A stretch of 39,539 bases of DNA from a virus, in IMG/VR virus record IMGVR_UViG_3300028734_000038, positions 1 through 39,539 of that record. The stretch is one strand, 5' to 3'. How positions within the stretch are numbered: position 1 is the first letter of the stretch; each line of letters starts with the position of its first letter. Shown here one piece after another: positions 3,542-37,215 of this stretch. The notes under the pieces were generated by a model. The model saw only the letters and a list, made by a program, of their open reading frames with translations. It ran no database searches and had not been told where the DNA came from. The translations under genes and the position numbers were made by a program.

Positions 3542-3626
3542 GCAAGGCTAGCTAAGTGGTCGAAAGTAGGTGATTGCAAACCATCTGGAAGAAATTCCCT
3601 CACTGGTTCAAATCCAGTGCCTTGCT
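3542..3626 (+). tRNA. tRNA with GCA anticodon (Cys) and long variable arm
   Basis: Acceptor GCAAGGC/GCCTTGC pairs perfectly, the T-arm is ACTGG-TTCAAAT-CCAGT, and the anticodon loop TTGCAAA reads GCA (Cys, codon TGC). The variable region is 16 nt with a GGAA/TTCC stem, a class II feature, and the D-arm (GCTAAGTGGTCGAAAGT) resembles tRNA-Ser. Pair 31-39 is A-C. It may be charged with Cys or, if the body dictates identity, Ser. CCA is not encoded. Confidence 0.75.
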
Positions 3627-3646
3627 CATATCATATTGATAATCAT

Positions 3647-3722
3647 AGGGTTGTATCACCTCTGCCTGATAAGCAGTTGAAAGTGTAATGGTCACATGTG
3701 GGTTCAAGTCCCATCCTCCCTA
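3647..3722 (+). tRNA. Aberrant tRNA-Ile (GAT), D-loop sequence displaced
   Basis: The T-arm (GTGGG-TTCAAGT-CCCAT) and anticodon arm (TCTGC-CTGATAA-GCAGT, anticodon GAT) are clear. The acceptor AGGGTTG/CCTCCCT has two mismatches. Only 7 nt (TATCACC) separate acceptor and anticodon arm, so there is no normal D-arm. The 20 nt after the anticodon arm contain GTGTAATGG, which is D-arm sequence in neighbouring tRNAs. Segment lengths 7-7-17-20-17-7-1 equal those of the tRNA at 8447. Confidence 0.6.
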
Positions 3723-3752
3723 CAACAAAGAAAAAATAAAGTTGCTTAATTT

Positions 3753-3782
3753 TGTAACCTTTTCAAAGTTTCTTCGTATAAT
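3753..3782 (+). promoter_or_regulatory. ECF-type promoter upstream of the HNH gene
   Basis: TGTAAC, 16-nt spacer, CGTATAAT. It has the same geometry as the cluster at 34-39 kb but lacks the CTTAAACAAACA leader that follows most copies there. Confidence 0.75.
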
Positions 3783-3854
3783 AGAAAAAGATTTATGAGT
3801 ACAAAAATTAAATGATGATTTTTCGAACCATTGTAGTATTTATATTAAAATAGT

Positions 3855-4526
3855 ATGATGAAAGATCAAATTATCGAATTACGAAAATTGGGAAATTCGT
3901 ACAACGAAATAGTAAGTAAACTTGGTTGTACAAAGTCAAATGTCTCATATCATTGTGGCAAATTAGGAATTAATTTACATAATGATAATCCGAAAAAAAT
4001 AAGTGAACAAATCGTAGAGTCAATAAGAAACGATAAAATTTCGTTGTCGTCTAAAGAGATTGCTTTAAAATATAATGTTAGCGTAAGTACAGTGAATAAA
4101 TTTACAAAGATGAAGTCAAGGTCTTTAGATATAAAACCTGAAAGTAGCGTATGTTTAAATTGTGGTAAAGAAACACCGTATAGAAAAGAGAAACGATTTT
4201 GTAGCAATCAATGCGGTGCTCAATATATACACAAATTGGCTTATAAAGATTTTTTAGAAAATAACGAAAAATATTGTGTTGGAAATTACACAGCTAAAAA
4301 TTTTAAGGACTTTATTGTAGCTGAGCAAAATGATAAATGCTTGATATGTGGAATGTCAGCAATTTGGGAAAACAAAATATTAGTTTTCGTTTTAGATCAC
4401 ATTGACGGTAATGCTTCAAATAACAAAAGAGAAAATTTAAGATTAATTTGTCCTAATTGCGATTCGCAAACAAGCACATTTAAATCGAAAACGAAGGTTT
4501 CAATGAGAAGAAATTATAATAAATAA
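3855..4526 (+). CDS. HNH homing endonuclease with HTH N-terminus
   Basis: A 223-residue protein. Residues ~1-90 carry two helix-turn-helix-like segments (LGNSYNEIVSKLGCTKSNVSYH and SSKEIALKYNVSVSTVNKF) for DNA recognition. A Cys pair (CLNCG...CSNQC) follows. Residues ~155-205 are an HNH nuclease: CLICG, then LDHIDGNASNN, then ENLRLICPNC, with metal-binding Cys and His and catalytic DH. Such free-standing phage nucleases cut intron- or gene-less alleles to spread. It sits between tRNA genes and is transcribed from an ECF-type promoter, so it is probably expressed with the small genes at 34-39 kb. A second in-frame ATG follows at 3858. Confidence 0.92.
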   Translation: MMKDQIIELRKLGNSYNEIVSKLGCTKSNVSYHCGKLGINLHNDNPKKISEQIVESIRNDKISLSSKEIALKYNVSVSTVNKFTKMKSRSLDIKPESSVCLNCGKETPYRKEKRFCSNQCGAQYIHKLAYKDFLENNEKYCVGNYTAKNFKDFIVAEQNDKCLICGMSAIWENKILVFVLDHIDGNASNNKRENLRLICPNCDSQTSTFKSKTKVSMRRNYNK

Positions 4527-4531
4527 TATAT

Positions 4532-4614
4532 GGAAGGTAGCATGCAGTGGTGCATAAGTGGCTTTGAACACCATGCCGATGTAAAAGTCGAGAGTTCGAT
4601 TCTTTTACCTTCCG
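4532..4614 (+). tRNA. tRNA-Ser (TGA)
   Basis: Acceptor GGAAGGT/ACCTTCC, D-stem ATGC/GCAT, anticodon loop TTTGAAC reading TGA, a 15-nt variable region as expected for Ser, and T-arm GAGAG-TTCGATT-CTTTT with G-U pairs. Pair 31-39 is C-A. CCA is not encoded. Confidence 0.8.
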
Positions 4615-4940
4615 CTTAGAAGTAAGATTAGTCTGAGACAAAGTACACGTCATGGCAACCACGCCAGCTTCTACACGCATAGCTGATTGATTAACAGAGT
4701 CATTCAGTCTGGTACTTAGAAGTAGTGTTAGCAATTGTTCTGTTTATTTGCTAATGATATTTATTAATTGCCGTTTCCGAATTGCTTAAGATGCTGCCAT
4801 TAAGATTCTGTTTGGGACAATTAGAAAGGATGTGTTGAACTACCCGATTATAAAAGGTCTCCTGAGATTTTATGAATCTTTGTAATAAGGTTCGTGGTCG
4901 TGAGTAAGAGGCTCACATCGGAAATAAAATATTTAAAATT
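4615..4940 (+). other. 326-base gap between tRNAs, no gene seen
   Basis: No convincing ORF or complete tRNA. It contains a direct repeat (CTTAGAAGTA near 4615 and 4726) and two hairpins with tRNA-like 5-bp stem/7-nt loop geometry: GAGAT/ATCTT around 4866-4882 and GTGAG/CTCAC around 4900-4916. Neither has a canonical T-loop. This could be decayed tRNA sequence or spacer processed out of a long tRNA precursor. Confidence 0.4.
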
Positions 4941-5014
4941 GGGGAGGTAGCTCAGTTGGTAGTAGCGGTGGATTGAAGATCCACAGGTCGTCGGTTCAAG
5001 TCCGACTCTCCCCA
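4941..5014 (+). tRNA. tRNA-Phe (GAA)
   Basis: Acceptor GGGGAGG/TCTCCCC, a standard D-arm with GTTGGT, anticodon arm GTGGA-TTGAAGA-TCCAC, 5-nt variable loop, T-arm GTCGG-TTCAAGT-CCGAC. A canonical class I tRNA; CCA is not encoded. Confidence 0.95.
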
Positions 5015-5095
5015 CGAAAAACAATGGTGCTTAGTATTGTTACTTCAATGGATGAAACAAAACACAATGCTGCAAAATTCCTTGTTTTTATTATC

Positions 5096-5169
5096 GCAGT
5101 GATGGTGTTTAATGGTTAGCATATAACCTTGCCAAGGTTGAGGTGGAAGTTCGAATCTTCTTCATTGCT
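5096..5169 (+). tRNA. tRNA-Gly (GCC)
   Basis: Acceptor GCAGTGA/TCATTGC, anticodon arm TAACC-TTGCCAA-GGTTG reading GCC, T-arm GGAAG-TTCGAAT-CTTCT. Canonical lengths. Its 3' end overlaps the end of a small antisense ORF. Confidence 0.92.
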
Positions 5170-5383
5170 CTTTTTTTATATTTATTATTTCGGTGATGAA
5201 ATCTAAATATTTTTTTGATGTTCGCTCTTTGACATATTTTTGAGCAGATGTATCGATAACATAATAATCAATAGAATTATTGGCGCATGCTGTTATTTTT
5301 AAATTATCATTGATCTGGGTTTGACGTAATTTTCTCTCGCCAAAAACAGGTAAATTAAATTTAATCCCGATCACCTGCTCCAC
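5162..5383 (-). CDS. Small antisense ORF between two tRNA-Gly genes
   Basis: A 73-residue frame with a GTG start that exactly fills the space between tRNA-Gly(GCC) and tRNA-Gly(TCC) on the opposite strand. Its composition looks protein-like (mixed polar and hydrophobic, Lys-rich C-terminus), but I recognise no family and see no promoter. It could be the surviving end of a decayed gene, such as a homing endonuclease in this island, or chance. Confidence 0.3.
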   Translation of the reverse strand: MEQVIGIKFNLPVFGERKLRQTQINDNLKITACANNSIDYYVIDTSAQKYVKERTSKKYLDFITEIINIKKEQ

Positions 5384-5393
5384 AAATTAAATT

Positions 5394-5479
5394 GCAGTAA
5401 TCGCATAGTTGGTCGATTGCGCCAGCCTTCCAAGCTGGAAAGAGAAATCACGGCGAGGGTTCGAATCCCTCTTACTGCT
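5394..5479 (+). tRNA. tRNA-Gly (TCC) with 16-nt variable region
   Basis: Acceptor GCAGTAA/TTACTGC, anticodon arm CCAGC-CTTCCAA-GCTGG reading TCC, T-arm GAGGG-TTCGAAT-CCCTC, all perfectly paired. The variable region is 16 nt (AAAGAGAAATCACGGC), where class I glycine tRNAs normally have 4-5. Confidence 0.88.
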
Positions 5480-5495
5480 CAATAAATTGTTAATA

Positions 5496-5768
5496 ATGAA
5501 ACTGAAAAACATATTGAAAGCCTTATGGGGTCAGTTACCAGCACAAAGAGCATTTAGGAATTTTTTTATCACTGGAAATGCTTTAGGCATGTTTAACATA
5601 AGAAGTCATCAGTGTGAAAATGGTACTCCAAAGGTTATGTACAATACCAGAGCCACAGCACAAAAAGCTGCTGATAGCATGGGTAAAAAAATGAATAAGC
5701 ATTTCTCGGTTTATAAATGTATCTATTGTGATGGGTATCACTTAGGTAAGAATAGAGATAATAAATAG
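5496..5768 (+). CDS. Small phage protein with C-terminal CxxC/H motif
   Basis: 90 residues from ATG 5496; longer frames start inside the upstream tRNA and are rejected. A basic N-terminus is followed by RATAQKAADSMGKKMNKHFSVYKC, then CIYCDGYHLG. This C-terminal Cys/Cys/His pattern after a repeated Ala/Lys helix recurs in many phage hypothetical proteins and suggests a small zinc-binding fold. The stop codon overlaps the next tRNA by two bases, so the message and the tRNA probably share one transcript. Confidence 0.75.
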   Translation: MKLKNILKALWGQLPAQRAFRNFFITGNALGMFNIRSHQCENGTPKVMYNTRATAQKAADSMGKKMNKHFSVYKCIYCDGYHLGKNRDNK

Positions 5769-5839
5769 TGGTATAGCTCAGTTGGTAGAGCATGGGTATC
5801 ATAAGCCCTGTGTCATAGGTTCGATTCCTATTGCCGCTA
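5767..5839 (+). tRNA. tRNA with CAT anticodon, normal variable loop
   Basis: Acceptor AGTGGTA/TGCCGCT (G-U pairs), D-arm GCTC-AGTTGGTA-GAGC, anticodon loop ATCATAA reading CAT, variable loop GTGTC, T-arm ATAGG-TTCGATT-CCTAT. Elongator Met or, if lysidine-modified, Ile(AUA). Confidence 0.9.
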
Positions 5840-5857
5840 CAAACTAATAAATATATA

Positions 5858-6088
5858 ATGGTAGAAATTAAGTTTAATTCACACGGAAAATTGAAAATGG
5901 ATAATGATACAAAAATCAAGGCTGGCGATACTGTTGAATACAGCTATGCTGATAATAACCCAAACGATAGAACAAGAAAAATGATCGTAACGCTTAGAGG
6001 CACTTGGGATGGTGATAAGGTTTCATTCAACGATAAGAAAAATACCGTAGTTAAAACTACTCATTGGCTAACATTAATAGAAGAATAA
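5858..6088 (+). CDS. Small unknown protein
   Basis: 76 residues from ATG 5858; an earlier TTG lies inside the tRNA. The sequence looks like a small beta barrel: KIKAGDTVEYSYADNN, then MIVTLRGTWDGDKVSFND, then TTHWLTLIEE. No family recognised. It lies between two tRNA-CAT genes and is followed one base later by a 45-residue frame. Confidence 0.75.
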   Translation: MVEIKFNSHGKLKMDNDTKIKAGDTVEYSYADNNPNDRTRKMIVTLRGTWDGDKVSFNDKKNTVVKTTHWLTLIEE

Positions 6089-6089
6089 T

Positions 6090-6227
6090 ATGCAAGAAAA
6101 AGAAGATGCTATTGAGGAAAGGGATGATAAGCTTTCATACGAGAATTATAATCATGTTGATGGCAAATTTCATAAAGTAAGACGTAAGAATACGCATCTT
6201 ACGCCAAAGAAGAAAAAACGAAAGTAA
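6090..6227 (+). CDS. Tiny lysine-rich protein
   Basis: 45 residues with an acidic N-terminal half (MQEKEDAIEERDD) and a strongly basic C-terminus ending PKKKKRK. The start codon is one base after the upstream stop, typical of coupled translation. The basic tail could bind nucleic acid; no family recognised. Confidence 0.6.
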   Translation: MQEKEDAIEERDDKLSYENYNHVDGKFHKVRRKNTHLTPKKKKRK

Positions 6228-6235
6228 AAATATAT

Positions 6236-6325
6236 TGCGAGTTAGAGAAGTCAGGCCTATCTCACCAGTCTCATAAGCTGGAGTACCGTTTAAAAGTATC
6301 GTTGGTTCGAATCCAGCACTCGCTT
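6236..6325 (+). tRNA. tRNA with CAT anticodon and 19-nt variable arm
   Basis: D-arm GAGA/TCTC, anticodon arm CCAGT-CTCATAA-GCTGG reading CAT, T-arm GTTGG-TTCGAAT-CCAGC. The acceptor pairs over six bases (GCGAGT/ACTCGC) with T-T at position 1-72. The 19-nt variable region has a GTAC/GTAT stem, a class II trait not expected for Met or Ile2. Confidence 0.82.
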
Positions 6326-6339
6326 CATTAAAAACACAC

Positions 6340-6424
6340 TGCGGAATGGTGTAATTGGCAACACACGAGGCTCATAACCTTGAGACATTAAATGCTTGTA
6401 TTGGTTCGAATCCAATTTCCGCTT
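6340..6424 (+). tRNA. tRNA with CAT anticodon and 17-nt variable region
   Basis: D-arm GTGT-AATTGGCA-ACAC, anticodon arm CGAGG-CTCATAA-CCTTG reading CAT, T-arm ATTGG-TTCGAAT-CCAAT, acceptor GCGGAA/TTCCGC with T-T at 1-72 as in its neighbour. The 17-nt variable region can form a short ACA/TGT stem. Confidence 0.82.
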
Positions 6425-6438
6425 CTATAATTATAATT

Positions 6439-6512
6439 GGTCGTGTGGCGCAATTGGTTAGCGCAATTGTCTTATACACAAAAGGTTGTGGGTTCAAGTC
6501 CCACCATGACCA
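6439..6512 (+). tRNA. tRNA-Ile (TAT)
   Basis: Acceptor GGTCGTG/CATGACC, D-arm GCGC/GCGC, anticodon loop CTTATAC reading TAT (AUA codons), variable loop AGGTT, T-arm GTGGG-TTCAAGT-CCCAC. AUA codons are common in the nearby AT-rich genes. Confidence 0.92.
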
Positions 6513-6524
6513 CAACAAATACAT

Positions 6525-6605
6525 GCTTAGTTAGCCAAGTGGCAAGGCAGCAGACTGTTAATCTGCCGAAGAAATTCATCGTAGGTTCGATCCCTACACT
6601 AAGCG
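6525..6605 (+). tRNA. tRNA-Asn (GTT) with 14-nt variable region
   Basis: Acceptor GCTTAGT/ACTAAGC, D-arm GCC/GGC, anticodon arm GCAGA-CTGTTAA-TCTGC reading GTT, T-arm GTAGG-TTCGATC-CCTAC, all perfectly paired. The variable region CGAAGAAATTCATC has a GAA/TTC stem and shares GAAGAAATTC with the GCA tRNA at 3542. Confidence 0.88.
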
Positions 6606-6625
6606 CAAATACTTTATATTTTTTG

Positions 6626-6656
6626 TTGCATATCTAATTTATTATCATTAAATTTG
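6626..6656 (+). promoter_or_regulatory. Host-type promoter for the 6675-7574 operon
   Basis: TTG (6626-6628), 20-nt spacer, TAAATTTG (6649-6656). It sits 19 bases before the first ATG of the operon. Confidence 0.6.
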
Positions 6657-6674
6657 CAGCCTAAAACATTTAAT

Positions 6675-6899
6675 ATGATAGTAAAATATGTACATCATGA
6701 CACTGAGGTAAGTGTGCAAGAAGAAATGCTTGGAAAACATCGTGAGCATTGCTTATGTTATCAGGGTTGTAAGTTCTTCAAACCTGAAACCAGAAAAGGA
6801 AATTGTGGCATTGCAAATGCCATTTATAAGAATTGCGTTCTTTACGGTGTTGTAACACCAGTTTGGGAATGTCCTAAATACGAGAAGGAAACTGTGTAA
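6675..6899 (+). CDS. Small Cys-rich protein (HCLCYQGCKFF type)
   Basis: 74 residues with six cysteines: HCLCYQGCKFFKP, then NCGIANAIYKNC, then VVTPVWECPKYE. This layout recurs in small phage and bacterial proteins of unknown function and suggests metal binding (zinc or iron-sulfur). I use ATG 6675; the TTG at 6654 lies in the promoter -7 element. First gene of a four-gene operon, with its stop overlapping the next ATG (TAATG). Confidence 0.8.
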   Translation: MIVKYVHHDTEVSVQEEMLGKHREHCLCYQGCKFFKPETRKGNCGIANAIYKNCVLYGVVTPVWECPKYEKETV

Positions 6900-7147
6900 T
6901 GGATGAATTAATACCAGCACCTGAACAGAATATGTTCAACATTGAAGTTTATTTGGACGACGGAAGGGTATTCGAATACAAAGTAGCGTCAGCCGAAAAA
7001 GTTCGAGAACATGCTCATGCCATTATCATGACAGGCTACAGGCATAATGATGGATTTTTATTTGAACATTATCCACCGCACAGAATCTTGAAGGTCAAGA
7101 GCAATAACATAAGCACTCAGTATAAAGACGTAACAAAAGGAACGTAA
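6899..7147 (+). CDS. Small unknown protein
   Basis: 82 residues: an N-terminal strand pair (MFNIEVYLDDGRVFEYKVAS), a helix (AEKVREHAHAIIMTG) and a C-terminal strand with EHYPPHRILKVKS. Reads as a compact alpha/beta fold; no catalytic motif. Overlaps both neighbours by one base, so it is translationally coupled to the Cys-rich protein before it and the ASCH-like protein after it. Confidence 0.8.
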   Translation: MDELIPAPEQNMFNIEVYLDDGRVFEYKVASAEKVREHAHAIIMTGYRHNDGFLFEHYPPHRILKVKSNNISTQYKDVTKGT

Positions 7148-7452
7148 TGGAATTACAAAAATTGATTTTAGCCGAGGACGTTTACGACGCCTTGGAAACA
7201 GGTAAGAATTGTACGATCAGAAAAGGTCGCAGAGACATTCAATTAGACAAGCTTTTATTTGAATCGCTTGACGAAAAAAGAACAACAGTCGTAAATGTCG
7301 TAATGACAATTCATTGTAAGCTACAGCATATTCCAGACGAGTTTGTATGGAACGACGGATTCACAGGACATGAAAACATGCTTACAGAAATGAAAAGGTT
7401 TTATCCTGACATTCAAATGGATACCGAATGTACTGTAATTATATTTGAATAA
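7147..7452 (+). CDS. ASCH-domain-like protein
   Basis: 101 residues resembling the ASCH fold (a PUA-related RNA-binding or nucleoside-processing barrel): ALETGKNCTIRKGRRDIQLDKLLFES near the start, then VNVVMTIHCKLQHIPDEF, then GFTGHENMLTEMKRFYPDI, then a final CTVIIF strand. The T-I-R-x-G element and the phenylalanine-tyrosine-proline motif are the usual family marks. Known ASCH proteins bind RNA or hydrolyse modified cytidines; beside a tRNA island an RNA role is attractive but inferred. Coupled to both neighbours by overlapping stop and start codons. Confidence 0.65.
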   Translation: MELQKLILAEDVYDALETGKNCTIRKGRRDIQLDKLLFESLDEKRTTVVNVVMTIHCKLQHIPDEFVWNDGFTGHENMLTEMKRFYPDIQMDTECTVIIFE

Positions 7453-7574
7453 TGAATTTCGAGACATTATTGGCAATAATTATAGCAATTCCATTTTCAA
7501 TGATTTGTCTACGTTGCACATTGAAAAATTGTGAGAATCCTTCATATGAATCATGGAGAATTGAGAACGAATAA
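7452..7574 (+). CDS. Tiny single-pass membrane protein
   Basis: 40 residues with one hydrophobic helix at residues ~5-20 (LLAIIIAIPFSMICL) and a short polar tail (CTLKNCENPSYESWRIENE). The start overlaps the upstream stop by one base. Probably inserts in the inner membrane; function unknown. Confidence 0.6.
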   Translation: MNFETLLAIIIAIPFSMICLRCTLKNCENPSYESWRIENE

Positions 7575-7640
7575 AAATATAAATGCTGGAACAACTCTGT
7601 ACGTGAGCCAGCTACTATTGCAATAGTAACGTACACTCAC
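7575..7640 (+). other. Hairpin-rich spacer before tRNA-Thr
   Basis: Contains a perfect 16-bp palindrome (TACTATTG/CAATAGTA, 7613-7628) and a GCTGG/CCAGC hairpin just upstream (7585-7612). No T tail, so it is more likely a processing or regulatory structure than a simple terminator. Confidence 0.45.
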
Positions 7641-7712
7641 GCCGATATCATATAATTGGTATTATGCTGGCTCTGTAACCCAGACATCGGGAATCGTCCT
7701 CTCGTATCGGCT
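7641..7712 (+). tRNA. Degenerate tRNA-Thr (TGT)
   Basis: Acceptor GCCGATA/TATCGGC is perfect and typical for Thr. The anticodon loop TCTGTAA reads TGT but has C instead of the near-invariant T33. The T-loop is ATCGTCC rather than TTCRANY, so T54 and A58 are missing. The D-arm keeps AATTGG. It may be a decaying gene or need unusual folding. Confidence 0.65.
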
Positions 7713-7718
7713 CAATAT

Positions 7719-7792
7719 GCATCCTTAGCTATAATTGGTAGAGCACCTGTTTAGTAAGCAGGGGGTTGTCGGTTCGAGTCCGTCAGGATGCT
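7719..7792 (+). tRNA. tRNA with AGT anticodon (Thr)
   Basis: Acceptor GCATCCT/AGGATGC, D-arm with ATTGGTA, anticodon arm CCTGT-TTAGTAA-GCAGG reading AGT, T-arm GTCGG-TTCGAGT-CCGTC with one T-T mismatch. A34 is rare in bacterial tRNAs outside Arg(ACG). Confidence 0.85.
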
Positions 7793-7813
7793 CAAACATT
7801 TAAATTAAAAACA

Positions 7814-8038
7814 ATGGTAAATACATTAAAGGGTAAATTGATTAAAACTGTTATAAAGAGTGCTTGCAGAGCAAAATTTACTAAAGAGAAGGTGCAAGAG
7901 TATCTAAAGGGATATTTAGCATTTGAGACAACTGTAACAAATTATTCGCTTGATGTAGATTCAGCATATTTTGATATTGTCTATGTGGACAATCATCAAA
8001 ATCATTTAATTAGTGTTAATATAAAAATCGTAAAATAA
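7814..8038 (+). CDS. Small unknown protein
   Basis: 74 residues from ATG 7814; the longer frame begins inside the upstream tRNA. A basic N-terminal half (MVNTLKGKLIKTVIKSACRAKFTKEKVQEYLKG, split by Lys/Arg) precedes a strand-rich C-terminus (SAYFDIVYVDNHQNHLISVNIKIVK). No family recognised. It shares a transcript with the tRNA before it and the YqeY-like gene after it. Confidence 0.7.
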   Translation: MVNTLKGKLIKTVIKSACRAKFTKEKVQEYLKGYLAFETTVTNYSLDVDSAYFDIVYVDNHQNHLISVNIKIVK

Positions 8039-8045
8039 AAGTAAT

Positions 8046-8438
8046 ATGACAATTCAAGATCAGATCAACTTGGACTTGCACCAAGCAATGTTAAACAAAG
8101 ACAAGGAACTTTTAACATTTTTAAGGGTTGTAGCCAGTGATTTTTACCTAAAAGGAAAGGTCATTGACGATGAAATGGCGAAGAAAGTTTTACGCACATT
8201 AAAGGAAGAAGCAACCATAATGAACAACCAATACGAAATTGACGTTATTGCTAAGTATTTGCCAGCATTATTAAGCGAAGCAGAGATCAAAGCACTCGTT
8301 ATTGAGGCTATTAAAGCCAATGGCTTCGCTGGAATGAAAGACATGGGTAAAGTTATGGCTGAATTAAAAAAGTTGCCTACAGCCTCTCAAATTGACAATA
8401 CTTATGCCAGTAAATTAACAAAGGAATTGCTAGCATAG
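8046..8438 (+). CDS. YqeY/GatB-C-like protein
   Basis: 130 residues matching the YqeY family (related to the tail domain of the amidotransferase subunit GatB): an N-terminal helical domain (IQDQINLDLHQAMLNKDKELLTFLRVV), a middle part (NNQYEIDVIAKYLPALLSEAEI) with the family's YLP motif, and a C-terminal three-helix domain (AIKANGFAGMKDMGKVMAELK). Bacterial members are about 148 residues. GatB-type tails bind the D-loop side of tRNA, so location in the tRNA island, directly before a tRNA whose D-arm is abnormal, is suggestive; that link is inference. Confidence 0.85.
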   Translation: MTIQDQINLDLHQAMLNKDKELLTFLRVVASDFYLKGKVIDDEMAKKVLRTLKEEATIMNNQYEIDVIAKYLPALLSEAEIKALVIEAIKANGFAGMKDMGKVMAELKKLPTASQIDNTYASKLTKELLA

Positions 8439-8446
8439 TAAAATAT

Positions 8447-8522
8447 GGAGGCGTATCACAACAATCTTCTAAATTGTTTTAGTGTAATTGGACTGATGTG
8501 GGTTCGACTCCCATCGCCTCTT
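8447..8522 (+). tRNA. Aberrant tRNA-Arg (TCT), D-loop sequence displaced
   Basis: Acceptor GGAGGCG/CGCCTCT, anticodon arm ACAAT-CTTCTAA-ATTGT (perfect, anticodon TCT) and T-arm GTGGG-TTCGACT-CCCAT are clear. Only TATCACA lies between acceptor and anticodon arm, while 20 nt containing AGTGTAATTGG lie between anticodon and T-arm. CAC before the anticodon arm can pair with GTG after it. Layout identical to the tRNA at 3647. Confidence 0.7.
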
Positions 8523-14627: not shown

Positions 14628-15662
14628 ATGAAAAACTTTTTATTTTCTTTCGTGCTATTAACCTTAGCACTTGTTTCTTGTCAGAAACAGTCTGACATCG
14701 TAACGCCGACTACAGGCAAAATGCATTATCCGACCATTAATTTGGTTCAGGGTTCTGAACTTGTAACAAAAAGTGCTGGCAACACTATTACTACACTCAC
14801 TTATGAATTTTGGGTGAAAGCACCAAATGCTGGTGGAACAGGAACTACTGGATGGGTACTTGCAGAGGACGGATTATTTAAGGATGGAACTACTCCACAG
14901 AACAACAATGCTCCAACATGGGATGTTGCTTATCCTAACAATTGCACCACATGCTTTATTGACATTCCATTACATATGGAAACACGTATTGTTATCAAAG
15001 GTAAGGATGCGGATGGAATTAAATATTACGGTATTGGCACTTCACCTGTTGGCGGATGGACAACAGCTGAAATTGGTAATATGACGATTAATATGTATGA
15101 GATTGATTCTCGCCTAACAATCGATGTTAGCGATTTGATTAAGAATACAAACTTTAATTTCACATTAACATTTGCTGGCACTATTAAACCCATTGACTAT
15201 AATAATATTGTTCAATCGACAGATTCATGGTTACTTGGCGTAGCATCTGGCGTTAGAAATTATAGAGGCGTACCATTAGTATCGACGACAGGAGTTTCAG
15301 TCTTGAAAAAAATTGAGATATTGGGTACAGGTATTAAAAATACAACACCTACCTATAAGATTAATGATGCTACAGCAACAATTGAGCAGGTTCAGAATGT
15401 ATATGAATACTTCGGAAAAGGTAGTTCAGATTTTACAGCCACATATAGTGTTGTTAGACGTGATGGCGTTGTGTTTAAACCTACGACAGCCATTACAATG
15501 GCAAGTCCAAATCCGTCAACAAGTTTTAGTGGTACTAATTGGCTGCAAGCAGGATATGACTTTCATATAGCTTTCACGGCAAACCCACAAGACTTAGGTA
15601 AAGGCTGCTTTGTAGGTACACTTACGAGCAATAGCACTATCAACGGAACTGTTGGTCTATAA
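14628..15662 (+). CDS. Lipoprotein, probably surface-exposed
   Basis: 344 residues with a lipoprotein signal: MKNFLFSFVLLTLALVSC, lipobox LVSC, acylated Cys at 18. The mature part is Thr/Gly/Asn-rich and strand-rich with a Cys-Cys segment (NNCTTCFID, residue ~105). No family recognised. Phages carry such lipoproteins to alter the host envelope, for example to block receptors; that role is inference. Starts a two-gene operon with a barrel-like protein; that gene follows without a gap after the stop. Confidence 0.85.
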   Translation: MKNFLFSFVLLTLALVSCQKQSDIVTPTTGKMHYPTINLVQGSELVTKSAGNTITTLTYEFWVKAPNAGGTGTTGWVLAEDGLFKDGTTPQNNNAPTWDVAYPNNCTTCFIDIPLHMETRIVIKGKDADGIKYYGIGTSPVGGWTTAEIGNMTINMYEIDSRLTIDVSDLIKNTNFNFTLTFAGTIKPIDYNNIVQSTDSWLLGVASGVRNYRGVPLVSTTGVSVLKKIEILGTGIKNTTPTYKINDATATIEQVQNVYEYFGKGSSDFTATYSVVRRDGVVFKPTTAITMASPNPSTSFSGTNWLQAGYDFHIAFTANPQDLGKGCFVGTLTSNSTINGTVGL

Positions 15663-25765: not shown

Positions 25766-26229
25766 TAAAGACATTGGCAGAATCATGTGTAATTAATGAT
25801 ATAATCTCGGATATGTTTTTACCATACGAACTATCATTAAAATTAAAGGAACTTAAATTCAATGAACCCTGCTTGGCATTCTATGCAACAGATCCTTTCA
25901 CTAAGGCAGATGATATGCAGCTAAAGATGGTAAAGCAATTACCAAATACTCCGATAGACGCATGTAGGAATTCAGAATTTGGAGGCAGCATAGCTGCACC
26001 AACATTTCAACAAGCATCCGACTGGATATTGTTAAAGTATGGATATTTTATATCGTCAACATATGACACATATAAAAAGCTGCATGGAGCAATGGCTGGC
26101 GATTATTATGACCTATATTTTGCTGGATATCATGCGACACAAAATATTGCTATGATTGCAATCATTAAAAAAATGCTTCTTTTAATATCTGAAAATTTAC
26201 TTGAAGGGGATGGTAAATGCGAAAAGTAG
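25762..26229 (+). CDS. Phage protein of the 'cognate start YELSLKLKELKF' type
   Basis: 155 residues. MFLPYELSLKLKELKFNEPCLAFY at residues 18-42, then IAAPTFQQASDWILLKYGYFIS near residue 75 and a C-terminal helix. This L.LKELGF.EPC...Y ... APTFQQA.DW..... pattern is common in phage proteins that appear near replication or metabolism genes; function unknown. The last 13 nt overlap the Mom-like gene. Confidence 0.8.
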   Translation: MIKTLAESCVINDIISDMFLPYELSLKLKELKFNEPCLAFYATDPFTKADDMQLKMVKQLPNTPIDACRNSEFGGSIAAPTFQQASDWILLKYGYFISSTYDTYKKLHGAMAGDYYDLYFAGYHATQNIAMIAIIKKMLLLISENLLEGDGKCEK

Positions 26230-27122
26230 GCGAGTTCGAAGAGAGATTGAAAGCATACAACGAAGATCATTGCTGGCAATACGACATACGTGTGAAGAAC
26301 ATGGAAGCCGATCTAAGCAATGGACAGTTCGACGCCGACTACTGCGACAAATTAAGAGTCTCCGATTTTATATTCGAAAACATTATAGATAAAAAAGAAC
26401 AGCAAAATCTTAAAAAGTTTATCGAACGTCATGAGTGGCTCGGAACATTATCTCAATATACGACACATTGGTTCGCTTGCTATCATATTCATAATGACGT
26501 AAAGATAATCGCTGGCGTAATATTATTCAATGTTCCAAACTCCTTTAGCAAAATACTCGGCGAGGAAACTCCACAACTGGAAAGACTTATAAGCCGAGGT
26601 GCTTGCATATCATGGTCGCCAAAGAACTTGGCAAGTGCTTTCTTAATGTGGTGCATCACATGGATGGTAAAGAATACACAGTACAGACTATTCACAGCCT
26701 ATTCAGACCCAACTGCAAAAGAATTAGGCACAATTTATCAAGCATGTAACTTTTATTACATGGGACAGAGTGCTGGAGCAACCAATCGCTACATAAATCC
26801 TTATAACGGAAAGATTGTGTCCGATAGATATTTCAGACAAAAGACTTCTTACAAAAAGTTCGCAATCGAAATGGGAATCGAATGGCAAAAGAATTGGAAT
26901 CACCCAACTGGAATGTGCTGGGATAATATGTCGAAAGAAACCGAACAAAGATTGAGGGACTATTCAAAAATGAAACAAAGTCAGGCAGAAATTATTCAAA
27001 TGCCTTCTAAACATAAATATGCATATGTGCTCGGCGTAACCAAACACGAAACACGCCAATTGAGAAAGCTTTATGAGTCAAAGAATAAAAATCATGAATA
27101 TCCTAAAGACAGAGGAAAATAA
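26217..27122 (+). CDS. GNAT-fold acyltransferase, Mom-like
   Basis: 301 residues. The middle (residues ~115-185) has a GNAT-type pattern: VKIIAGVILFNVPNSF, ERLISRGACISWSPKNLASAFLMWC, RLFTAYSDPTAKELGTIYQACNFYYMG. The sequence R-G-A-C...P-K-N..S......Y-S-D-P....G-x-I-Y-Q-A-x-N is the arrangement of the phage Mom family, which modifies adenine in phage DNA to evade restriction. The C-terminal ~100 residues are basic and helical, plausible for DNA binding. Mom membership is inferred from motif layout; a different acyltransferase remains possible. Confidence 0.7.
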   Translation: MRKVGEFEERLKAYNEDHCWQYDIRVKNMEADLSNGQFDADYCDKLRVSDFIFENIIDKKEQQNLKKFIERHEWLGTLSQYTTHWFACYHIHNDVKIIAGVILFNVPNSFSKILGEETPQLERLISRGACISWSPKNLASAFLMWCITWMVKNTQYRLFTAYSDPTAKELGTIYQACNFYYMGQSAGATNRYINPYNGKIVSDRYFRQKTSYKKFAIEMGIEWQKNWNHPTGMCWDNMSKETEQRLRDYSKMKQSQAEIIQMPSKHKYAYVLGVTKHETRQLRKLYESKNKNHEYPKDRGK

Positions 27123-33337: not shown

Positions 33338-33877
33338 ATGGTACAAACAATCAAATTTGATCAAATTTATTCAGACTACTACAAACGTATTAGTCATTTT
33401 ATTGGTTTGAAAATTGGTTTTAATTCGGGTATTACTGCCGAATTAACAAACGACGTATTTGTAAAAGTTAATTTACATTTAACCGAATTTGATGCAGAAA
33501 AAAGCAGTTTTGGCACATGGATACACACCATCGCAAAAAACATTATGATTGATTATTCCAGAAGCACGGAATACAAAAATCGCTACAAAACTGCACATAT
33601 TGACGATACTGTTAATGATGAACTTCATCAGGTATTTCAAATTGCACACAAAGAAAACAATTCGGATATGGAACAAAACGAGGTTTATGTTCGGATTCAG
33701 GCTTCAATGGCAAAACTAAAGGAAAACGAAAAAACTTTGGTTGAGTTAATTATTCTCAAAGAATACAAATTGAAAGAGGTCGCCGAAATAACAAATATGA
33801 CTTTGGCAAATGTAAAAGTAACGATTATGAGAGCAAAGGAAAAAATGAAGTTACAACTCGCAGATATATATTGTTAA
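33338..33877 (+). CDS. ECF-type sigma factor 1
   Basis: 179 residues, minimal sigma70 with only regions 2 and 4. Region 2 (residues ~8-85): FDQIYSDYYKRISHFIGL, ELTNDVFVKVNLHLTEFD, SFGTWIHTIAKNIMIDYSR. Region 4 (~125-178): LKENEKTLVELIILKEYKLKE, then VAEITNMTLANVKVTIMRAKEKM, a helix-turn-helix that reads the -35. It should direct host RNA polymerase to TGTAAC/CGTA-type promoters. It uses a class-26 promoter itself and ends in a terminator. No anti-sigma gene is visible next to it. Confidence 0.93.
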   Translation: MVQTIKFDQIYSDYYKRISHFIGLKIGFNSGITAELTNDVFVKVNLHLTEFDAEKSSFGTWIHTIAKNIMIDYSRSTEYKNRYKTAHIDDTVNDELHQVFQIAHKENNSDMEQNEVYVRIQASMAKLKENEKTLVELIILKEYKLKEVAEITNMTLANVKVTIMRAKEKMKLQLADIYC

Positions 33878-36699: not shown

Positions 36700-37215
36700 A
36701 TGGAAAGGTATTCAGATTTTAATAAAGTTTATGTTGAGCACAAAGCTATGGTGTTTAACTTCGTTCTAATCAGAACAAACAACCGTGAAGTCTCGGAAGA
36801 GATTACAAGCGATGTATTTGTAAAAGTAGCTGAATGTATGGATGTTTTTAATCCTGAGATTGCCAAGTTCACAACTTGGATGCTTACCATAGCAACGAAT
36901 AAGATTAAAGATTACTACAGATCATTGCAGACAGTTGCCAAACTTGGCGAAGTCTATTTATCTGAATACGTTCAAGCCGTTGCCCCAGATAGTAATGATT
37001 CAATTGAAAATGATGAACTAAGGGCACAAATTGATCGTGCTTTTGATGTTCTTAAGGATATTGAAAAACAGGTTGCTGATCTTTATATTAAACAGGATAA
37101 GCAATACAAAGAGATTGCTGCACTGTTGGATATTCCAATTGGCTCAGTCAAAGGCTATTTAAGCCGTGCCAGAATGAAAATGCAAATCTATCTTAAAGAT
37201 GTTTATGCTAACTAA
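36700..37215 (+). CDS. ECF-type sigma factor 2
   Basis: 171 residues, regions 2 and 4 only. Region 2: FNKVYVEHKAMVFNFVLIRT, EITSDVFVKVAECMDVFN, KFTTWMLTIATNKIKDYYRS. Region 4: LKDIEKQVADLYIKQDKQYKE, then IAALLDIPIGSVKGYLSRARMKM. It resembles sigma 1 in length and in the S/T-DVFVKV motif, so the two may be an old duplication or a two-step cascade. It lies inside the ECF-promoter array. No membrane-anchored anti-sigma candidate is adjacent. Confidence 0.93.
   Translation: MERYSDFNKVYVEHKAMVFNFVLIRTNNREVSEEITSDVFVKVAECMDVFNPEIAKFTTWMLTIATNKIKDYYRSLQTVAKLGEVYLSEYVQAVAPDSNDSIENDELRAQIDRAFDVLKDIEKQVADLYIKQDKQYKEIAALLDIPIGSVKGYLSRARMKMQIYLKDVYAN

Follow-up and report, generated by a model that had tools for sequence, protein, structure and literature searches.

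Phage tRNA-Arg and tRNA-Ile genes with exchanged D-arm strands: a probable natural non-circular permutation of tRNA

To our knowledge, tRNAs are everywhere taken to share the cloverleaf order of segments, and every tRNA finder presupposes it. Plant-virus tRNA-like structures (TLS) and bacterial Y RNAs are tRNA-like RNAs that achieve their mimicry of tRNA through another chain path. Circularly permuted tRNA genes of archaea and algae carry tRNA segments in an unusual order, with the 3′ half before the 5′ half, and an ordinary tRNA is restored by processing (PMC10085705, PMC3978253); D-armless mitochondrial and other non-canonical tRNAs are without the ordinary D hairpin (PMC7609411, a review that mentions neither phages nor permutation). 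A natural non-circular permutation, expected to keep the three-dimensional positions of its parts, has been described for the type-SGC hammerhead ribozymes (Eckert et al. 2023, PMC10085705), whose authors knew of no earlier one in natural RNAs.

The window analyzed here, the whole 39,539-nucleotide stretch of a viral record (IMG/VR IMGVR_UViG_3300028734_000038), contains two loci for which the original prediction proposed a tRNA with D-loop sequence moved behind the anticodon arm. A check of the sequence confirmed the position of both, as well as their shared segment lengths (7-7-17-20-17-7-1), and gave the following features.

3647..3722, plus strand: tRNA-Ile(GAT) with rearranged D arm, whole gene (80.4 bits with R1, a covariance model built on the rearranged segment order)
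3657..3659, plus strand: tRNA-Ile CAC, 3′ strand of the D-stem (positions 23-25), before the anticodon arm (family covariation with the strand after the anticodon arm)
3661..3677, plus strand: tRNA-Ile anticodon arm, anticodon GAT at 3668-3670 (from the sequence)
3683..3692, plus strand: tRNA-Ile GTG (5′ strand of the D-stem), U-A14-A15, U, G18-G19 and U20 (3692), after the anticodon arm (R1 alignment)
3697..3697, plus strand: tRNA-Ile U48, Levitt partner of A15 at 3688 (family A15/U48 conservation)
3698..3714, plus strand: tRNA-Ile T arm (from the sequence; 5 pairs, loop TTCAAGT)
3715..3722, plus strand: tRNA-Ile acceptor 3′ strand and A73 (5/7 pairs)
8447..8522, plus strand: tRNA-Arg(TCT) with rearranged D arm, whole gene (78.4 bits with R1)
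8457..8459, plus strand: tRNA-Arg CAC, 3′ strand of the D-stem, before the anticodon arm (family D-stem pairing tests)
8461..8477, plus strand: tRNA-Arg anticodon arm, anticodon TCT at 8468-8470 (5/5 pairs)
8482..8492, plus strand: tRNA-Arg GTG (5′ strand of the D-stem), U-A14-A15, UU, G18-G19 and A20 (8492), after the anticodon arm (A20 in Arg members)
8498..8514, plus strand: tRNA-Arg T arm, with U48 (8497) just 5′ of it (5 pairs, loop TTCGACT)
8515..8522, plus strand: tRNA-Arg acceptor 3′ strand and U73 (7/7 pairs)

U8-A9-U lies directly 5′ of CAC (3657..3659) in tRNA-Ile, and the predicted D-arm sequence GTGTAAT(T)GG does follow the anticodon arm in both genes, although the GTG of Ile is shifted downstream by one base relative to that of Arg. 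The identity of segment lengths holds for this pair but not for the wider family described below, in which the linker that follows the anticodon arm differs in length between members, mostly within 3-8 nt. The anticodon stem of tRNA-Ile has 4/5 pairs, with a U27-U43 mismatch common to 73/86 Ile members, and its acceptor stem has two mismatches (U5-U68 and U6-C67), because of which this copy, taken alone, may be impaired; the acceptor of tRNA-Arg closes with G1-U72, seen in 31/116 Arg members. AGA makes up 54.5% of the Arg codons in the window.

Neither rearranged locus was called by ARAGORN on the window, and the Rfam tRNA model (cut-off 29 bits) scored the Arg gene at 33.1 and the Ile gene, below cut-off, at 22.8; several other family members exceed the cut-off and are aligned conventionally. 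R1 found both window genes with E of about 1e-18, the next-best place being an ordinary tRNA at 28.7 bits, but it was trained on 38 sequences that include both genes, whose scores are in part a matter of construction. Single-sequence folding does not favor the rearranged layout, which is common for short RNAs, and lends it no support either. The independent evidence for the layout is the family, by virtue of two comparisons at sequence level: a pairing test left free at the D-stem and matches in isolated phages.

About 200 distinct relatives with the same segment order were found in metagenomic phages and isolates, so that the absence from every related phage that would have refuted the prediction does not apply. 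The covariance search for this layout in other phages returned isolated-phage matches of at least 63.9 bits, versus at most 41.5 for ordinary tRNAs, with the proviso that some of these phages also supplied training sequences. The isolates comprise Felix O1, Vequintavirinae, Streptomyces Stanwilliamsviridae, crAss-like, Agrobacterium, Vibrio and Microbacterium phages, whose hosts span several bacterial phyla; relatives of the window Ile gene occur in crAss-like and Streptomyces phages, and a Felix-type copy is present in 242 phage records. In all, such overlooked Arg and Ile genes are carried by hundreds of phages, some of them in common laboratory use with E. coli and Salmonella. As the members are related, their counts do not represent independent events.

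All three pairs of a D-stem enclosing the anticodon arm are formed in 175/198 distinct members (173/198 purely by Watson-Crick pairs), in a set for which D-stem pairing was not required; the shuffled control averaged 42.8, with a maximum of 63 over 5000 shuffles, and sliding the register by 1-3 left only 0-1 members paired. The stem is likewise complete in 78/98 members below 80% identity, and about 12% of members are without one or more of its pairs. The proposed pairing of CAC before the anticodon arm with GTG after it is backed by compensatory changes across phages: isolates carry CAC/GTG, CTC/GAG, ACC/GGT, CGG/CCG, CCG/CGG or CCC/GGG, and CGC/GCG is found in the family, among others. Since position 13-22 is usually U-U, the stem has only three pairs. 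RNAalifold recovers the enclosing stem unaided, with double changes in 18/19 pairs, and compensatory change across phages affects all four helices; because the alignment used for these structure counts (A1) was selected for a full D-stem, however, the pairing test rests on the unselected sets only.

The remainder of the molecule conforms to an ordinary class I tRNA-Arg or tRNA-Ile (RF00005) in its acceptor, anticodon and T arms, U8, A14, R15-Y48, GG, bases 20 and 73 and anticodon loop, and in its location in the same arrays. A 7-bp acceptor followed by an unpaired base 73 is present (97.4% of acceptor cells paired and double changes in every pair of A1, where the finder had demanded at least 6/7 pairs for most rows), as are a T arm with a TTCRA loop (98.9% of T-stem cells paired in A1) and an anticodon arm with A37 in all Arg and Ile members and C32 in 194/202; the T loop, U33 and purine 37 had been demanded by the finder. 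TTC.A occurs in 197/198 members and A15/U48 in 192/198 (G15/C48 in 2), U8 and A14 are kept, and so is the GG, which agrees with the suggestion that it would still be available for the T-loop. Unlike RF00005, these tRNAs have swapped D strands and a D-stem of 3 bp around the anticodon arm, and they lack both a D hairpin loop and an ordinary variable loop.

Bacterial identity determinants are A20, A/G73, U73, C35 and U/G36 for Arg and A73 and U20 for Ile (PMC9976931). In the family, bases 20 and 73 agree with the anticodon according to these determinants: 115/115 Arg members have A at base 20, 81/83 Ile members have U there, and base 73 is A in 83/83 Ile members and mixed in Arg members. Ordinary tRNAs of the same loci have A20 in 92/96 Arg and U20 in 45/53 Ile cases. 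A tree suggests about 11 changes between Arg and Ile identity, only 5 of them on supported branches, and base 20 followed in 4/5, which is not significant by itself; built from 77-nt genes, the tree is too weak to date the switches. The anticodons are almost exclusively those of Arg and Ile (eight anticodons, two amino acids). Scans for other anticodons (middle G/U; middle A/C with third A/C) gave ordinary tRNAs and noise, except for one TAC (Val) member, but they fix TATC and GTAA, and other D-stem types combined with other anticodons could be missed; TAG, CAG, AGA and similar anticodons among raw candidates were discarded as ordinary tRNAs caught by chance.

These genes very probably encode genuine phage tRNAs for Arg and Ile that are charged and take part in translation, and that represent a natural non-circular permutation of the D arm. 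Sequence comparison demonstrates, as far as it can, the layout, the covariation of the D-stem, the conservation of tertiary and identity positions, the placement in arrays and the restriction to phages, while the L-shape, processing, charging and ribosomal use are inferred in the absence of transcript, charging or structure data. In the gene, the segments "5′ D strand plus D-loop" and "3′ D strand plus anticodon arm" would have exchanged places, so that the RNA chain would run from the acceptor through U8-A9, the 3′ D strand, the anticodon arm and the linker to the 5′ D strand, and the D-stem would therefore close around the anticodon arm to form one long stacked hairpin. The D-loop would become an open connector to the T arm, replacing the variable loop and keeping A14, A15, G18-G19 and base 20 where they normally stand; recognition by host ArgRS or IleRS would then rely on base 20 (A20 or U20), base 73 and the anticodon, and the tRNAs would supply the AGA/AGG/CGN and AUH decoding needed by the phage.

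With helices, R15-Y48, GG and TTC.A kept and internal segments swapped, the genes qualify as a non-circular permutation, albeit one whose three-dimensional contacts have not been observed, and they differ from the type-SGC hammerhead in being tRNAs rather than ribozymes. They are not circular permutations, as the acceptor strands stand at the two ends in the usual order and the change is internal; the D strands flank the anticodon arm instead of forming the cloverleaf hairpin between it and the acceptor; and, in contrast to D-armless tRNAs, they retain a covarying D-stem, GG and base 20, only relocated. An anticodon loop, both ends at the tRNA position and cellular Arg/Ile determinants would set them apart from plant-virus TLS and Y RNAs. 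No report of a swapped-D-arm layout was found in open-access full texts (bioRxiv and subscription papers being outside the scope), and the earlier statement that none is known in bacteria or phages is not contradicted by that literature.

Could the D-arm sequence be read without a swap, as an intact D hairpin transferred to the variable region or as a tRNA that lacks the D arm and has a long variable loop? GTG-TAATGGT-CAC can indeed form locally in the window Ile gene, whose minimum-energy fold displays this hairpin, but elsewhere GTG becomes GAG, GGT or GGG while the downstream CAC is unchanged or unmatched. Local pairing reaches 28-57% without convincing covariation, against 100% for the enclosing register in the same alignment (selected for the enclosing stem), and on the unselected set the enclosing stem is full in 88% of members; a local hairpin was rejected for lack of covariation, and this reading is very improbable. 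Harder still to sustain is a precursor rearranged after transcription, by splicing or circularization, into the ordinary order: archaea and algae do have permuted tRNA genes, as cited in PMC10085705, and Zooman, one phage of the set, encodes an RtcB-like ligase, yet the gene ends are already in their normal place, a swap of two internal segments needs several cuts and ligations, no conserved processing motif was seen and the D-stem covaries in the unprocessed order. Decaying or recombined pseudogenes, which the acceptor mismatches of the window Ile copy and the labeling of Klebsiella and E. coli phage copies as tRNA-OTHER or nothing might suggest, are scarcely credible, being already contradicted by the covariation of the D-stem and other helices in phages whose hosts belong to several phyla; the identity bases are also kept.

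More serious, if unlikely, is the possibility that the RNAs are made as tRNA-shaped decoys, occupying or absorbing host tRNA nucleases or synthetases without being used by the ribosome. PMC13096335 is cited in favor, and these RNAs have an altered D/anticodon junction and no ordinary variable loop, but a decoy has no need of the correct A20/U20, A73, U33 and A37 or of an anticodon loop, which is intact in all members, nor of supplying an anticodon that the phage set is missing, and eight anticodons of two amino acids suit codon supply better than they suit a single nuclease. For translating tRNAs, escape from tRNA-cutting defense remains a possibility, not demonstrated, as the reason for keeping this chain path. 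A broader proposal is tentative and rather doubtful: that this is a second chain topology of translating tRNA in nature, fixed in phages with hosts of several phyla almost only for Arg and Ile, and selected because the altered D/anticodon junction and the loss of the variable loop protect it from tRNA-cutting defense nucleases.

A bacterial origin was rejected, almost no such genes being present in the bacterial genomes searched. The model search found 1/395 Bacteroidota genomes, 1/301 in the family of the positive genome, 0/398 Pseudomonadota and 0/299 Bacillota; it scored only 12-16 candidates per genome but still recovered the known positive. A pattern scan of genome contigs gave 2 structural passes among the matches listed, while the window Ile query had no match in 72,556 plasmids and the Felix query none in 5,426 E. 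coli genomes.

The rearranged genes sit in phage tRNA arrays and usually provide an anticodon missing there: 84/229 have an ordinary tRNA no more than 20 nt away, and at loci with at least 6 tRNAs only 11/119 duplicate an anticodon. If the products are charged and translate, the tRNA fold needs no cloverleaf chain path, and a natural RNA permutation becomes testable in widely kept phages (Felix O1 relatives, Vequintavirinae on E. coli K-12). Arg and Ile tRNAs counted as "missing" are present, which corrects phage annotation and bears on codon-compensation studies and on the tRNA-cleavage contest. In the Felix O1 genome paper, Arg[AGA] is one of the codons that were expected to have a tRNA but turned out to have none (PMC3185647); judged by its sequence, the rearranged gene at 25951-26029 supplies this Arg-AGA tRNA missed by the authors, its charging and use being inferred. 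In at least one case, that of Yaboi, the copy is annotated as the wrong amino acid.

The two 76-nt window elements retain recognisable acceptor, anticodon and T arms, as originally predicted:

3647-3722, plus strand, rearranged tRNA-Ile(GAT)
8447-8522, plus strand, rearranged tRNA-Arg(TCT)

In both, the predicted D-arm exchange is evident from the sequence: only UAUCAC plus one base lies between acceptor and anticodon arm, and the latter is followed by (A)GUGUAAU(U)GG, the 5′ D strand and D-loop of ordinary tRNAs. ARAGORN calls neither element, versus 12 other tRNAs in the window, and only the Arg copy passes the Rfam tRNA model, weakly (33.1 bits; Ile copy, 22.8 bits).

The layout is not confined to this virus. 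A pattern with fixed CAC and GTG matched 34 viral contigs, containing about 25 distinct elements (anticodons TCT, ACG, GAT, TAT and CAT) whose acceptor, anticodon and T stems remain paired despite sequence change. BLAST also located it, almost always unannotated, in isolated phages, so that absence from every related phage, which would have refuted the prediction, does not hold.

Isolated phages with a rearranged tRNA (BLAST)
Felixounavirus, Vequintavirinae, Streptomyces phages, crAss-like Kehishuvirus
Listeria-labelled LPML1, Vibrio, Agrobacterium, Microbacterium and Alishewanella phages

A covariance model of the layout, trained on 38 sequences, cleanly separates this class from ordinary tRNAs, with at least 63.9 bits in 12 isolated phages versus at most 41.5 bits. 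Streptomyces phage Yaboi carries a 71-bit rearranged tRNA-Arg(TCT) (NC_048730.1, 86686-86764; L645:2687-2765) annotated as tRNA-Val(aac), the linker GTTAACA apparently having been mistaken for an anticodon loop.

Pairing of the displaced D strands was assessed after further scans in which both strands were left free or independent of each other (505 sequences in total), with only the acceptor, anticodon and T stems used to accept candidates. All three D pairs form in 174 of 201 candidates with the UAA motif, compared with 0-1 when the partner is slid by 1-3 bases and a mean of 43 with shuffled partners. Among Arg and Ile members the stem is complete in 175/198 and, below 80% identity, in 78/98 (shuffled 17.7, maximum 33). 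Across isolated phages the strands change together (CTC/GAG, ACC/GGT, CGG/CCG, CCG/CGG and CCC/GGG besides CAC/GTG), and the proposed CAC-GTG pairing around the anticodon arm is thereby supported. A local hairpin, the rival fold, shows no covariation and is rejected. RNAalifold recovered the enclosing stem unaided from 38 members, in an alignment selected for a full D-stem and hence not an independent test. U13-U22 is a conserved mismatch in the family alignment; other recurrent features are U27-U43 (73/86 Ile members) and G1-U72 (31/116 Arg members).

U8, A14 and the T-loop TTC.A are conserved family-wide. Bases 15/48 are A/U in 192/198 members and G/C in 2, both common versions of the Levitt pair, and A/C in 4. 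In established tRNA structure the 5′ D strand is stacked against the anticodon stem's 3′ strand; the 43-linker-10 route therefore connects adjacent elements, and the step from 9 to 22 covers little distance. An L-shape is inferred. In a subtype (L035, L201, L284; related form in L031) the 3′ connector is longer (e.g. GTTGAAAAT), and some members have G15-C48.

Anticodons are Arg (TCT, ACG, TCG, CCT, CCG, one GCG) or Ile (GAT, TAT, CAT; CAT members could instead be Met), two scans aimed at other classes, with TATC and GTAA fixed, yielding nothing beyond these and one TAC. This single Val member (L632, minus strand, near 3552) has U20 and A73, and its anticodon differs from Ile TAT by one base. 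At position 20, which follows GG, A is present in 115/115 Arg members and U in 81/83 Ile members, a rule that ordinary tRNAs at the same loci also obey; at position 73, Ile members have A in 83/83 cases and Arg members vary. A20 is the main determinant of E. coli ArgRS, and the Ile identity set includes A73 and U20 (PMC9976931). Judged from sequence, such agreement is difficult to account for if host synthetases do not recognise these RNAs.

Genomic placement was also surveyed: 230/251 copies lie in loci with ordinary tRNAs, 84/229 within 20 nt of one, and the Kehishuvirus tikkala copy (95577-95653) sits between tRNA-Trp and tRNA-Met, filling the gap there. Only 6/251 are called by ARAGORN, and in tRNA-rich loci only 11/119 duplicate an anticodon present in ordinary form. 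ARAGORN finds no ordinary TCT or GAT tRNA in the window, where AGA accounts for 54.5% of Arg codons and ATT plus ATC for 67% of Ile codons. For Felix O1 (NC_005282.1), the genome paper counts Arg[AGA] among the over-used codons whose tRNA was expected but not found (PMC3185647); a rearranged tRNA-Arg(TCT) lies at 25951-26029. An HNH endonuclease gene (26003-26395) is annotated as starting inside this element, so its start is probably placed too early.

Bacterial genomes are nearly empty of rearranged tRNAs, and plasmids and E. coli genomes gave no match to the BLAST queries used. Two MAGs contain copies: those of G002 are on one short contig that carries several tRNAs, and those of G001 are somewhat worn and lie on contigs that look chromosomal. 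In Prevotellaceae MAG RUG13201 the contigs bearing two Ile-like copies (L648:517-593 and L506:1501-1577) have genes of chromosomal appearance. Both copies have T-stem flaws, and one lies roughly 360 bp upstream of a TROVE/Ro60 gene (PF05731, E 3.5e-17); they may reflect phage capture, Y-RNA-like use or a binning error.

By every functional mark testable in sequence these RNAs would be tRNAs, transcription, processing, charging and decoding not having been shown; their chain order is outside the tRNA family definition. Searches of open-access full texts, preprints excluded, yielded no report of the layout and so do not contradict the prediction that none was known in bacteria or phages. According to Eckert et al., natural RNAs offered no known non-circular permutation until their hammerhead (PMC10085705), and neither permutation nor phages come up in a review of non-canonical tRNAs (PMC7609411).

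Elsewhere in the window, 7641-7712, missed by ARAGORN, scores 33.9 bits with Rfam tRNA and probably encodes another tRNA, which by eye is Thr(TGT); 4531-4615, called by neither tool, is possibly a tRNA-Ser(TGA)-like element, again by eye. ORFs 33338-33877 and 36700-37215 resemble ECF-type sigma factors by eye only, and the lipoprotein-like N-terminus seen by eye in the ORF at 14628 points tentatively to Bacteroidota as host.
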